A DNA stretch of 32,496 bases from Nanobdellota archaeon (GTDB lineage Archaea > Nanobdellota > Nanobdellia > Pacearchaeales > GW2011-AR1): the NCBI GenBank assembly GCA_018817405.1, contig JAHITZ010000035.1, positions 1 through 32,496 of the forward strand, read 5' to 3'. Positions within the stretch are counted from its first letter, which is position 1, and each line of letters starts with the position of its first letter. Positions 27,963 through 32,495 of the stretch are shown here, one piece after another. The notes under the pieces were generated by a model that worked only from the letters and a program-made list of their open reading frames with translations, was not told the origin of the DNA and did no database searches. A program made the position numbers and the translations under genes.

Positions 27963-28083
27963 TTATGTTAAGATGCTTGCGAAAACTCTACAATTAAGTG
28001 TGGAGTTAGCATCTTGAGCATCCAAAAAACGAGCGCTATCAAACCGCACATTTTAAGGTGTGGTGGCTCATCGTTTTTCTGAT
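27963..28083. repeat. 121-bp two-hairpin dispersed repeat, copy 2
   Basis: This is the same length as copy 1 at 5573-5693, with about nine substitutions. In the inner stem of hairpin 1, ACTCTACA still pairs with TGTGGAGT through a G-U-type pair, and in hairpin 2 ACCGCAC pairs with GTGTGGT in the same way. The right end overlaps the 3' end of the minus-strand gene 28068-28649 and supplies its last codons and TGA stop. Confidence 0.8.
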
Positions 28084-28649
28084 TTTCTCTTTTTCTTCAC
28101 TATCACAATTGCAAGAATAATTACAATGACTATTATTGCAATAATCACGATTAAAGAGGTTGATATTTTATCTTTTTCAGGAGGAGCTTCTTCTACAGAT
28201 AATTCTGGAACTACTAAAAAAGGAAGGGTTGTATCCATTGCAATTCCAATTGTTACTCCTCCATCAATTATATCACTAGTTATTTCTTTGAAAGATATAA
28301 CAACAAGGTATTCAGTGTCAATAGCAGCATCTTCTGGGATTTTATATTCTACAAGAACCTCGGTGTCTTTTGTTCCGATAGGGACTGTGTAATCCTTTTC
28401 AATGCTGTTGGTGTTTGTTACAATGTTTCCATCATCTGTTTTAACTTCAGCTCTGAAAATAACATCTTCGTCTCCAACCATGTTTTGTAATGTCAACTTA
28501 AGGGTTCCTTCTTCTCCGGTTTGAACGCTTTTAGGGTTGCCAACCCAGATAGAGGAAGAAACTCCTGCGGCGTTTACAGTGGCAAGTAAAAAAATACTTA
28601 CAGCTAAAATCGCTGCCATTATGCTGACTATTTGTTTTGTGTTTTTCAT
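28068..28649 (-). CDS. secreted Ig-like membrane-anchored protein, 193 aa
   Basis: A signal peptide (about residues 1-27, ending V-N-A-A) is followed by one beta-sandwich domain of S-layer or NEW3/COG1361-like character (G-E-E-G-T-L-K-L-T-L-Q-N near residues 46-57, V-L-V-E-Y-K-I-P-E near residues 98-106). A short Pro/Glu linker precedes a single C-terminal membrane helix (about 164-184, L-I-V-I-I-A-I-I-V-I-V-I-I-L) and a basic K-K-K-R-K tail, so the domain faces outside. The ATG lies one base after the stop of the upstream gene, indicating a shared transcript and probably coupled translation. The last codons come from the 121-bp repeat. Confidence 0.78.
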   Translation of the reverse strand: MKNTKQIVSIMAAILAVSIFLLATVNAAGVSSSIWVGNPKSVQTGEEGTLKLTLQNMVGDEDVIFRAEVKTDDGNIVTNTNSIEKDYTVPIGTKDTEVLVEYKIPEDAAIDTEYLVVISFKEITSDIIDGGVTIGIAMDTTLPFLVVPELSVEEAPPEKDKISTSLIVIIAIIVIVIILAIVIVKKKRKSEKR

Positions 28650-28650
28650 T

Positions 28651-29595
28651 TTATATCAAGGCTATTGTCCACGATTGTGGTGTGGAGTACAGCTGTGTTG
28701 AGGTAGTAGGAACAAGAGGTATGCAGTGATATAATTGTTCTTGTCCTGTGACGCCGTCATTTATACTATTATTTCCCCTATCTAGCAGTGCGCCAATTAT
28801 TTCTCTTGCTGTTTCATTTAAAAGAGTTCTTCCACTTACATCGGTGGTATTTACATGGCACTCTGGGTTAGCTCCACCAGTTTCAATATCCACTGTAAAG
28901 TTTGTAACATCAATCCAATAAGAGTTATCGGTTAGACCCATTAAGTTAACGCCTGTCACTGTGAGGTTTGTGATATTGTAATTTCCTGTGTTGTTTATTA
29001 ATGTTGGGTCATTGTTTGAAGTTTGATTGGTTAAGCCAGGACTTATTGTGTCCCATGTTAATGTATCTGGACCAACTATGATTGCTTGAAGTTGTTCATA
29101 GTCATAAGTTGTTGTTGTATTATAAATAATTGTTCCGTTCCCAGTATCGTTTCCCCAAGCATTTATTATCCATGCTCCTGGAGCATCAAAATACCACATC
29201 GTGACATTACATGTAAAGTTTTGAGTATATGTGGAATTTTCATCCCAAATAGCTGCACAGGTTGTGTTAAGTCTTAACTCTTCTCCTGTTTTTGAAAAGT
29301 TTGCTCCAACACTTGTATCGTCAATATCATCAACCCCATCTGTATCACGAAGTTGAACTGTAAATGTAACACCTAATGGACCATTTTCTGTAGGGGTTCC
29401 GTCACTTAGGGTTGCGTTATATACCACCACTGTTACAGCGCTTGCTCCAGTCACTGTTAGATTAACAACCTCAGTTCCTGATGTTGCTCTTCCTGTAATG
29501 CCTTTAATCCAGTCACCAAAACCTGCAGAAACAAAGTAGCTTAAAAGAACCAGCATTAAGAAAATCAGTATTCCGATATAAATTGGTTTTTTCAT
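28651..29595 (-). CDS. secreted sequon-rich surface protein, truncated paralogue of the LamG/HTH protein
   Basis: A signal peptide (about residues 1-24) is followed by a domain matching the membrane-proximal part of the protein encoded at 29796-32495. Shared landmarks in order are D-x-[DS]-I-[DN]-x-T-S-V, N-T-T-C-A, M-W-Y-F-D-A, P-T-L-I-N-N-T-G-N-Y-N, F-T-[VI]-D-I-[ED]-T-G-G, L-L-D-R-G-N and N-D-G-V-T-G-Q-E-Q, ending at S-W-T-I. In the large protein S-W-T-I begins the membrane helix and is followed by the cytoplasmic helix-turn-helix part; here the protein stops three residues later (A-L-I), so both are missing. N-x-[ST] sequons are very dense. It overlaps functionally with the next gene, one base apart. 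Confidence 0.8.
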   Translation of the reverse strand: MKKPIYIGILIFLMLVLLSYFVSAGFGDWIKGITGRATSGTEVVNLTVTGASAVTVVVYNATLSDGTPTENGPLGVTFTVQLRDTDGVDDIDDTSVGANFSKTGEELRLNTTCAAIWDENSTYTQNFTCNVTMWYFDAPGAWIINAWGNDTGNGTIIYNTTTTYDYEQLQAIIVGPDTLTWDTISPGLTNQTSNNDPTLINNTGNYNITNLTVTGVNLMGLTDNSYWIDVTNFTVDIETGGANPECHVNTTDVSGRTLLNETAREIIGALLDRGNNSINDGVTGQEQLYHCIPLVPTTSTQLYSTPQSWTIALI

Positions 29596-29656
29596 TTTCC
29601 TCTCTTTTAATTCACTTTGTATGATGTGCTTTCTTCTTTTTAAACATTGTTGTTTT

Positions 29657-29790
29657 TAGGGCGTTGTCCGGAGTCGCAGAAATAAACGCGATTTCGTTTC
29701 CCGCTAACTCGACTGTCGTCGATACCAGCCCTGGCCATCCCACACCAATCCCCCAAATTCTAGTGAAATCGCGTAACTCCTGACAAAGCT
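29657..29790. repeat. palindromic element family B, copy 2
   Basis: Left TTGTCCGGAGT (29664-29674) pairs imperfectly with ACTCCTGACAA (29776-29786). Next are CGCGATTTC/GAAATCGCG (29687-29695/29765-29773) and the TCGAC/GTCGA hairpin (29709-29713/29718-29722). The C-rich tract and the sequence CCCCCAAATT(C)TAGTGAAATC before the right arm match 17170-17216. Relative to that copy, stem 2 has lengthened and the nested hairpins are absent. The element fills most of the gap between two minus-strand surface-protein genes. Confidence 0.8.
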
Positions 29791-29795
29791 TCTTT

Positions 29796-32495
29796 TTACT
29801 TTCCTAATTTTCTTACTGCTCTTGAGTACAAAGTCCAGATGTTTCGGGGGTCTTTGTTTAGTAATTCAGCGACTTCTGCGTTCTTGAGGCCTTTTTCTCT
29901 TAGGTAATTTACAGCTGTTTCCAAGATACTGAGTCTTCTGTCTGTGAAGATATTTACTGGAATGTGCAGGGTTTTTCTGCTTACTTTGATTTTTGTTTCT
30001 TTCTTTCCAACAGCATTTCTGTAGTTTAGCCAGACTGTTCTGTCGTTTCTGTTTAAGGTGAGGGCGATTTCATGGTAAGTTAGGCCTTTGTTTTCTTTCA
30101 AGAACTTGCATAATGCCTCTGAAGGACCAATTGCTTGTTTGAATATGTCTATTGGGACTTTTATTTCTGGTTTGACTTTTATTGCTTCTGTTAATAGTTG
30201 CGAGATGGTTGTTCCATATTCTGCTCTTAGTTTTTCTTCAAGGGCTGTCAATTCGTCTAAACTTATCTTACGTTTCTTGAGTCTTTTTTCAAGAATTTCC
30301 AGTATGTTTTTCTTAGATTTCTTCCTCTTCCTTCTATTTCCTAGAACAAATGCTGCTGCAAGGATTGTTATTGTCCACGAGCCGCCAGCAGAGGTGGAAT
30401 ATGGCTGTGTGGGTACTGGAGGAACTTCTGGAATGCAGTAATAGAATTGTTCTTGTCCTGTAACTCCGTCATTTACGCTGTGGTTTCCTCTGTCAAGGAG
30501 AGAGTTGGTTATGTTTACAGCTGTTCCGTTTGTAAGGCTTGTTCCACCTGCACATTCTGCTGGAGGAGTTCCTCCTGTATCTATATCGATAGTGAAGTTT
30601 CCAACATCAATATAAAAAGAAGTATAGGTTTCTCCGTAAAGATTTATTGTTGTGAGTGAGATATTTGAGACATTGTAATTTCCAGTGTTGTTTATTAAGG
30701 TAGGTTCTGAAGGTGTTTGATTCATTGCACCAGTGGTTACTGTTAATGAAAGTGAGGGCGGGGAGATTACCATTGCTTTTAGCAAGTTGTATTGGAATGT
30801 TGTTGTGGTGTTTTGTGCAGAGTTTGCTTGCAGGTCTTCTGTATATACTGCGACATTCCAGTTGCCGTTTGCATCAAAATACCACATATCTACTGTGCAT
30901 GAGAAATTTTTAGAAGTTGTAGTATTTTGTCCGCTTATCTCTGCGCAAGTTGTGTTTTGTCTTAGTACTTCGCCAGTCCTTGTGAAATTTGTTTTTACAC
31001 TTGTTGTGTTTATGCTATCAGCGCCATCTGCATCAGTGACTATCGCAGTGAATATTACCGGAACAAAGGTATTTTCTAAAGGGTCCATACTTGCTATTGA
31101 TTGAACAAAAACTATAGCCGGAGCTGTATTTATCGTTAAATTGCCGCTAGCTCCCCAATCACTATAAAATGCTCCGTCAAATAATCTCATTGAGCAATTC
31201 CAAACTTCCCCGGCGGTTGTGTTCGCAGAATCTAAGGTTGCTGTGAAGAATGAATTATTCGCATAGCTGTTGTTGTAATCCATAGTTAAAACTAAAACAG
31301 AGTTATTATACCATTTGACTGTTACATTCATTGCATCTCCGTCTGCATCAACCAAAGTGTCAAAGCAATTCAAGTCCTGTGAGCTAGAATTTGTTCCGTC
31401 TGTTGAGTTTATTGATGGGGTGGGGGTTGTTGGGGTTGAATCAATTGTAACTGTTCTTTGTTCTGTTTCATTTTTATTCCCCGCAATATCAACTGCGTAA
31501 CCAGTAAATTCGTGAGTATCATAATCAAGATTAGTAAAGTTATTTTCATACTGGTTTGCAGAAGCATTGTACAATGCAGAGATTTCTGCAGCAGTCAAAG
31601 TCCTGTTAAAGATAAGGATTTCATCTATCATTGCATCAATCTGATTACCAGAACCAGTAGCTAATCGCTGATCTGCTATTCTGAATTTTCTCCCGGCATT
31701 AGAACTTATAGAATTAGGACCTATGTCTGGATTAGAAGCAACATCATCTACATAAAGTTTTGGTAAACCTCCACCAGAGCCAAAGACTGCTACAAAATGA
31801 TGCCAACTACTATCATTTATGTCAGTAGAATGGCTATAGCTTGTCTCTGCGTCTTTATCCCCAATAATTGCTGTAAATTTACTGCTTGATACCAATAATT
31901 CCCAGCCATAGTAATAGGTAGGAATGTCGCTATTATCAAAGTAGTAGTCAGAGATTATTGTGGGACTTGTAGTCTTATCTCCTGTTTTTATCCATCCTGA
32001 AACTGTGAAGCTTGAACTAAAAGAATTGTCCAATCCAGGAACTTCAATGTAATCTCCGTCGCCATCAAACTCAAATCCTTTTCCCCAATATCCTAAATCG
32101 GTTTGAACAGCATTTCCAAAGGCAGTTCCGTTGTTTGAGTAACTTGATAGGTCTATTGGGTCTCCGCTAGAATTAGTGTCGTCCATTCTCCACCAACCAA
32201 CCAAAGAATCGTCAAAATCAATAAAGGAATAATGGTCGCTTGTGTCTGATGATGTGACGTTTACATAAATGTCTGTATTAGATTGTGTCGAATCATTACT
32301 TGGGGTTGGGTTTGTGAAGTTGATGTCTGGGTTGAGCGTGTCAATCAAGAAGTTATAAGTGTCGCTGGTGTTGTAGTTGTTTGCAGTGTCGTTGCAGGTT
32401 GCTATGAATGTGTATGAACCATCTGCAATTGAGGAATTTGTGTAGTTCGCTCCTGTTCCTGAGGCATTAATCATCATGGTTTGGTTTGCTGCTCC
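29796..32495 (-). CDS. LamG-domain surface protein with membrane helix and cytoplasmic tandem HTH, 5' end outside window
   Basis: The frame is open at the right edge, so the N-terminus is missing; numbering here starts from the first visible Met (position 32477). Order of parts: an Ig-like repeat (about 1-85, with A-T-C-N-D-T-A-N-N-Y), a concanavalin/LamG-like domain (about 88-304; D-D-S-L-V-G-W-W-R-M-D, G-D-Y-I-E-V-P, W-H-H-F-V-A-V, Y-V-D-D), further Ig-like sequence, and the Cys-containing domain also found at 28651-29595 (about 460-695). A short membrane helix (about 697-713) is followed by a basic stop-transfer cluster G-N-R-R-K-R-K-K. The final 180 residues are cytoplasmic and contain two similar helix-turn-helix units, L-T-Y-H-E-I-A-L-T-L-N-R-N-D-R-T-V-W (about 798-815) and L-K-N-A-E-V-A-E-L-L-N-K-D-P-R-N-I-W (about 863-880). 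The layout suggests glycan or protein binding outside and DNA binding inside. Confidence 0.85.
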   Translation of the reverse strand, partial: GAANQTMMINASGTGANYTNSSIADGSYTFIATCNDTANNYNTSDTYNFLIDTLNPDINFTNPTPSNDSTQSNTDIYVNVTSSDTSDHYSFIDFDDSLVGWWRMDDTNSSGDPIDLSSYSNNGTAFGNAVQTDLGYWGKGFEFDGDGDYIEVPGLDNSFSSSFTVSGWIKTGDKTTSPTIISDYYFDNSDIPTYYYGWELLVSSSKFTAIIGDKDAETSYSHSTDINDSSWHHFVAVFGSGGGLPKLYVDDVASNPDIGPNSISSNAGRKFRIADQRLATGSGNQIDAMIDEILIFNRTLTAAEISALYNASANQYENNFTNLDYDTHEFTGYAVDIAGNKNETEQRTVTIDSTPTTPTPSINSTDGTNSSSQDLNCFDTLVDADGDAMNVTVKWYNNSVLVLTMDYNNSYANNSFFTATLDSANTTAGEVWNCSMRLFDGAFYSDWGASGNLTINTAPAIVFVQSIASMDPLENTFVPVIFTAIVTDADGADSINTTSVKTNFTRTGEVLRQNTTCAEISGQNTTTSKNFSCTVDMWYFDANGNWNVAVYTEDLQANSAQNTTTTFQYNLLKAMVISPPSLSLTVTTGAMNQTPSEPTLINNTGNYNVSNISLTTINLYGETYTSFYIDVGNFTIDIDTGGTPPAECAGGTSLTNGTAVNITNSLLDRGNHSVNDGVTGQEQFYYCIPEVPPVPTQPYSTSAGGSWTITILAAAFVLGNRRKRKKSKKNILEILEKRLKKRKISLDELTALEEKLRAEYGTTISQLLTEAIKVKPEIKVPIDIFKQAIGPSEALCKFLKENKGLTYHEIALTLNRNDRTVWLNYRNAVGKKETKIKVSRKTLHIPVNIFTDRRLSILETAVNYLREKGLKNAEVAELLNKDPRNIWTLYSRAVRKLGK

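Follow-up and report, generated by a model that had tools for sequence, protein, structure and literature searches.

What does a tandem helix-turn-helix (HTH) module do at the C-terminal end of a giant archaeal surface protein? The question arises at one end of the window, which is the whole of contig C57 (32,496 bp) from an archaeal assembly of 1.07 Mb that is 82% complete. The open reading frame (ORF) at this end encodes 899 aa; it is truncated on its 5' side by the contig edge, and its start codon is outside the window. The ORF, its parts and two adjoining genes are as follows.

29796–32495, minus strand: partial ORF of the giant surface protein (3' 899 codons and the stop), open to the contig end
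31578–32066, minus strand: LamG domain (Laminin_G_3), residues 144–306, Pfam E-value 7e-19
30360–31127, minus strand: C-terminal Ig-like region, residues 457–712, last strand W-T-I-T-I-L (AlphaFold2 model)
30336–30377, minus strand: apolar segment of 14 residues, WTITILAAAFVLGN, the proposed membrane helix, its start modelled as a beta-strand (sequence, AlphaFold2)
30309–30335, minus strand: basic cluster RRKRKKSKK (sequence), which recurs in fused relatives
29799–30341, minus strand: C-terminal module of 181 residues, a three-helix unit and two HTHs (AlphaFold2 pLDDT 95.2; Sigma70_r4_2)
30003–30125, minus strand: HTH 1, recognition helix region NRNDRTVW (AlphaFold2)
29805–29927, minus strand: HTH 2, recognition helix region NKDPRNIW (Pfam and AlphaFold2)
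28651–29595, minus strand: cluster partner, a secreted Ig protein of 314 aa with homology to the Ig region that precedes the tail
28068–28649, minus strand: cluster partner, a 193-aa protein with N- and C-terminal hydrophobic segments and a basic end, with a counterpart in AR20

Pfam analysis of the window ORF shows Laminin_G_3, a weak Big_13 (bacterial Ig-like) match and Sigma70_r4_2; the LamG and Sigma70_r4_2 matches both exceed the Pfam cut-offs. The surface protein with LamG and Ig-like domains described in the initial annotation is thus borne out, by the LamG E-value given above and, for the Ig domains, by Big_13 together with the AlphaFold2 model. Both HTH units also carry the motif quoted there, L-N-[RK]-x-x-R-x-[VI]-W, as LNRNDRTVW and LNKDPRNIW.

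Structure prediction of the C-terminal tail, which had been proposed as a check, yields the two expected HTHs. The AlphaFold2 model was built on an 83-sequence alignment and has a mean pLDDT of 95.2. It displays tri-helical HTHs at tail residues 73–113 and 139–179, a three-helix unit in the N-terminal part, and a short strand-helix element at P-[IV]-x-IF before each HTH. The Sigma70_r4_2 (PF08281) match has an E-value of 8e-8 in the full ORF and 1e-9 with the tail alone, with scores of 32–38 bits against a curated cut-off of 25.7, and this family is matched at E ≤ 0.01 by 79 of the 83 module members. Foldseek comparisons of single HTH units match HTHs of sigma region 4, LuxR-type and archaeal factors (8hno, 0.7 Å over 44 columns; 5fgm, TMt 0.70), and 2h27 is also among the structures likened to single units. 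The whole tandem module has no equivalent solved structure among the best 50 Foldseek matches (TMq ≤ 0.30), and the whole Ig-plus-tail model gives chiefly generic beta-sandwich matches. The single units therefore resemble sigma-70 region 4, LuxR-type and archaeal-factor HTHs by HMM or fold, but the tail differs from the sigma-70 region 4 type in having two tandem units and a dedicated three-helix N-terminal part, without sigma region 2. Pfam and NCBIfam scans of the window protein gave no match to that core-binding domain.

A search for the same tandem module elsewhere, also proposed at the outset, found relatives across the phylum, in 124 of 279 genomes sampled evenly from it. A scan of genome contigs in the collection with a 19-sequence alignment located 158 loci that encode tail relatives, so the module is not a chance feature. 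The 79 loci listed carry the labels Pacearchaeota, Woesearchaeota, Nanoarchaeota/Nanoarchaeia or unnamed archaeon, apart from one labelled 'bacterium'. The module is single-copy in the window's own genome and present in seven of nine other genomes of the genus, and in 15 of 56 genomes overall. No tail relatives were found in viral contigs or phages, and there is thus no sign of a viral module.

Two architectures are seen. In Pacearchaeota, and at loci named only Nanoarchaeota, the module ends N-anchored surface proteins of up to 4,420 aa. These start with a lysine-rich coil of about 65–200 residues and a strong transmembrane (TM) helix, followed by a sequon-rich ectodomain and a final Ig domain with the last strand YST..G-W-x-I-x-I; then come a short apolar stretch, the basic cluster and the HTHs. 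Woesearchaeota encode the module in a gene of its own (~180 aa), which abuts a surface-protein gene. Of the 51 standalone HTH genes with a neighbour downstream, 45 share its orientation and lie within 30 nt of it, in most cases overlapping it. This neighbour encodes a membrane-anchored, sequon-rich protein in 36 of the 51 cases, compared with 34 of 645 control genes.

In a maximum-likelihood tree the fused modules form one clade (40 rows including one contig-edge copy, support 95/93). The fused copy in the complete genome of AR20 pairs with AR20's own standalone copy (support 100/98), which points to a second fusion. On this phylogeny, the fusion of the module to a surface protein is an event that arose at least twice. 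Some modules are doubled and have four HTHs; in L074 and L086 they terminate giant proteins, and in L162 and L163 they form a standalone protein of about 337 aa. Apparent N-terminal HTH fusions in G116 and G124 were dropped; their frames run through N-runs. An internal start producing a separate tail was likewise discarded, with no early ATG in the window tail and none conserved in the relatives read.

The fused gene is part of a conserved cluster. The recurring order is a giant HTH-tailed gene, a secreted Ig protein of ~315 aa and a ~190-aa protein with a TM segment and basic tail; it is present in the window, in several genomes of the same genus, at another Pacearchaeota locus and in AR20. 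One same-genus genome has a 417-aa gene inserted in the cluster. The Ig-like region before the tail has a homologous region in the neighbour at 28651–29595 and in relatives. That neighbour has SWTIALI as its terminal strand, with neither an apolar extension nor a basic cluster or HTH after it, and the tail-less Ig proteins beside fused genes in general end a few residues past the same tryptophan and lack the apolar and basic segment.

Positions 29620–29795, between the HTH-tailed and 314-aa genes, contain a GC-rich extended inverted repeat, GCGATTTC...GAAATCGC, with nested hairpins; the RNA fold has an energy of -46.7 kcal/mol and a z of -1.6. No Rfam family was matched in the window, including this repeat. 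At seven other loci (L075, L078, L080, L087, L088, L089 and L098) a second HTH gene abuts the gene of a coil and TM protein similar to the N-terminal region of the giants, and in several of these loci the HTH gene adjoins a topoisomerase-I-like gene. Upstream of the HTH and surface-gene pair in L075, L078, L088 and L089 are roughly 0.5–2 kb with few or no ORFs ≥70 aa, and part of these regions hold arrays of the operator-like motif described next.

A 17-bp near-palindrome, TACAYAYATARTAAGTA, is present upstream of both fused giants and standalone HTH genes. Often there are two copies, spaced by about 52 bp, that enclose a TATA-like box, and the second copy ends close to the start codon or directly at it. 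In some Woesearchaeota a related form is repeated in arrays every 21 bp. With two mismatches allowed, upstream regions of fused genes have 28 matches in 15 of 26 (shuffle mean 0.12) and those of standalone genes 31 matches in 20 of 50 (shuffle mean 0.33). A profile of 47 sites shows that C3 and G15 are near-invariant and that there is a dyad symmetry, TAC...GTA. Such a dyad is as would be expected if the two HTHs read two half-sites. The predicted target for the tail can be written out as TACATACATAATAAGTA, in which C3 and G15 would be the key positions.

The consensus was first picked by inspecting part of the data; an earlier guess, TACTTAYATAATAT, had a poor fit to the fused loci and was replaced by the 17-bp form. 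At no more than one mismatch, all 28 sites in 50 whole genomes are at HTH-operon promoters, among them the 18 sites of a first set of ten genomes. The same holds for the 20 held-out HTH-positive genomes, not used to define the motif, where nine of nine sites (in six genomes) are directly upstream of an HTH gene; the one site of G040, which belongs to the discovery set, is also so placed. No site at this stringency was found in 19 HTH-negative genomes. Together, the held-out genomes and G040 carry a site in seven of 21 cases, and therefore the motif drifts or is absent in the others. Most matches in 'control' promoters belong to divergent genes that share the intergenic region of an HTH operon. 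Five genomes carry only a fused copy of the module and have sites only at its promoter, which makes the fused tail the natural candidate binder.

These observations bear on the earlier proposal that the protein acts on DNA. Direct action is supported by the enrichment of the operator and its confinement to the promoters of the module's own genes, and we infer that it is this tail that binds. The fused tail probably binds the operator of its own gene, and as the probable binder it would be cytoplasmic and self-regulating. The data point above all to autoregulation of the own operon, which was absent from the earlier reading; it is proposed because the matching 17-bp sign is at the gene's own promoter and, in a high-stringency search of the genomes covered, at no other place. 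Sensing of the cell exterior, also put forward at the outset, would be a hypothetical further role.

The window itself has no operator within three mismatches, as expected with the promoter on another contig. A genus pattern, ACAYAHAWTAAGTA, occurs once per genome in six of seven same-genus genomes searched, the window's own included, and precedes the giant gene by about 180–560 nt. The copy in the window's own genome, at C39:7330, lies before an ORF of 2,955 aa, which is open to the contig end and carries an N-terminal coil and TM segment. This ORF is probably the missing 5' part of the window gene, because it shares its upstream neighbour and protein similarity with G002, where one ORF spans both N-terminus and tail. 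The link is by synteny only, and no sequence overlap joins C39 and C57. The window protein too probably has an N-terminal cytoplasmic coil and strong TM helix, outside the window; the strong N-terminal TM is seen in complete relatives and in the C39 ORF, and for the window protein it depends on the C39 link. The ORF of locus L158 (7606–16470), the presumed 5' half, has an in-frame multi-pass membrane stretch at codons of about 2155–2721 that matches UbiA prenyltransferase (E-value 6e-28). Sequon-rich ectodomain sequence flanks this stretch on both sides, and the G002 ORF has no such cluster of hydrophobic segments. It may be either a real insertion or an assembly artefact.

The leader in the window's genus has features of its own.

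L158 7346–7605, and the same region in L030, L031, L032, L034, L036 and L159: leader region

After the operator, the leader RNA begins with a sequence resembling CCTAGGGTGTGTG, which is the reverse complement of hairpin loops resembling CACACACCCTAGG. These loops are in strong hairpins just before the start codon and are followed by U-rich runs. Leader and loop variants covary (CTTAG/CTAAG in G002, CAGGG/CCCTG in G004). Of eight leaders, two have a longest pairing (21 and 20 bp) beyond that of every shuffle, three match or surpass most shuffles in this respect, and three are ordinary. An attenuator or leader switch is possible.

The K+R content is 22% in tails and 23% in N-terminal parts, compared with 5% in ectodomains; sequons are 2.3-fold over expectation in ectodomains and at expectation in tails. 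The tail thus has the composition of the cytoplasmic N-terminus and of the standalone proteins, unlike the ectodomain. The apolar-plus-basic segment is present only in fused forms. The distance from the tryptophan to the basic cluster has a median of 14 residues, and is 8 in AR20, where the segment before the tail is WSISIFFFRRR; longer apolar segments are found in some members (L054, L064, L070, L081, L094). In the Ig-plus-tail AlphaFold2 model WTITIL forms the closing strand of the last Ig domain, and the short linker after it has pLDDT < 50. Of the stop-transfer cluster and membrane helix initially proposed, the basic cluster stands, but the helix is doubtful, being 14 residues long and partly a beta-strand in the model. 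The cytoplasmic location draws on tail composition, lack of sequon enrichment and operator logic, against which stand the short apolar segment and the strand model. Given the composition, the operator logic, the restriction of the apolar-plus-basic segment to fused forms and the longer apolar segments of some members, the tail is judged to be very probably cytoplasmic. That it is stably tethered to the membrane is judged reasonably probable.

The tail is quite likely an autoregulator that binds DNA sequence-specifically and is part of the very surface protein that it controls. The protein would start with a cytoplasmic coil and strong TM helix, expose a huge glycosylated LamG/Ig ectodomain outside the cell, and have its tandem HTH on the cytoplasmic side, directly after the last Ig domain. 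Each HTH would read one half of TACAYAYATARTAAGTA, a site that is paired around the TATA box of the own promoter. By binding the paired operators at the TATA box and initiation region, the tail would repress its own operon; repression is suggested as the sign of regulation because the downstream operator copy lies between the TATA box and the start codon. Synthesis of the surface protein may in this way be tied, at the membrane, to the amount already made. The full model, in which completed copies inserted in the membrane stop further production and keep the gene that encodes them there, with an adjacent regulator fused at least twice, is offered tentatively, at somewhat less than even chances.

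The tail may instead regulate the operon as a released or never-tethered protein, cut near the Ig/linker boundary in a Notch-like manner. The weak membrane segment and its beta-strand model are in keeping with this, as are the soluble standalone versions in Woesearchaeota, which function without a tether; however, the diverged fused clade has retained both basic cluster and apolar stretch, no cleavage motif or protease partner was identified, and the linker must still be reached from the cytoplasm. This reading is considered unlikely. An exported tail, for example as the DNA-binding domain of an adhesin, would account for the strand that closes the Ig domain directly before the tail, after which the remaining 8 or so apolar residues would not suffice to cross a membrane, and for the AR20 segment. 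The cytoplasmic-type composition argues against export, as does the persistence of operators in genomes with the fused module as the only HTH copy, and this explanation is very improbable.

A similarly small chance is given to a tail that mainly anchors the chromosome, or its own gene, at the envelope so that the giant protein is made locally, and is not a switch. Sites confined to the protein's own promoter would suit such a tether, but they lie on either side of the TATA box, like those of a transcription regulator, and standalone modules lack any membrane part. The truncation of the window gene by the contig end could suggest an assembly or annotation artefact that joined a surface gene to a regulator gene. 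Dozens of independent assemblies share this fusion, which forms one supported clade, and the complete AR20 genome has another; the comparative data exclude an artefact, the chance of which is negligible. An autoregulatory, cytoplasmic tail is the reading carried forward here.

ToxR and CadC have their DNA-binding part at the N-terminus. Proteins of this type combine a DNA-binding domain, a transmembrane region and an extracytoplasmic part in one polypeptide (PMC10269533), as would the protein here. Demey et al. define a transmembrane transcription regulator by a DNA-binding domain and TM region in one protein (PMC10269533), and the present protein would count as one: Sigma70_r4_2 and the AlphaFold2 HTHs represent the DNA-binding domain, and at least one TM region is found in complete relatives and in the C39 ORF, the window protein depending on the C39 link. 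In contrast to ToxR and CadC, the DNA-binding part is C-terminal in an N-anchored, giant, structural-looking surface protein, there are two tandem HTHs, the putative target is the own operon, and the membrane crossing before the tail is uncertain. The nearest archaeal case found in function is ArnR/ArnR1 of Sulfolobus acidocaldarius, membrane-bound HTH regulators of surface-structure genes; ArnR has an N-terminal HTH, a HAMP and sensor domain and two C-terminal TM helices (PMC6396743). The architecture differs, with the HTHs here C-terminal and the strong TM N-terminal, so the ArnR layout is not reproduced. ArnR/ArnR1 also have no LamG/Ig ectodomain, and the regulator is separate from the structure it controls. 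Notch-type receptors would be alike in linking a large ectodomain to a cytoplasmic portion with action on DNA. Notch differs in that proteolysis sets its intracellular part free and that this part is no HTH binding an operator directly. A literature search of open-access papers found no earlier description of the module, operator or fusion.

Pacearchaeota and Woesearchaeota are a large part of DPANN diversity, and little is known about the control of giant proteins in these small, uncultured, probably symbiotic archaea, where such proteins may touch hosts. Regulator, operator and target together make up a unit that is open to experiment, its binding site being predicted base by base, and the split and fused forms of the module provide a natural comparison across two lineages. 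This would be an unusual case of a surface protein that doubles as the transcription factor of its own gene.
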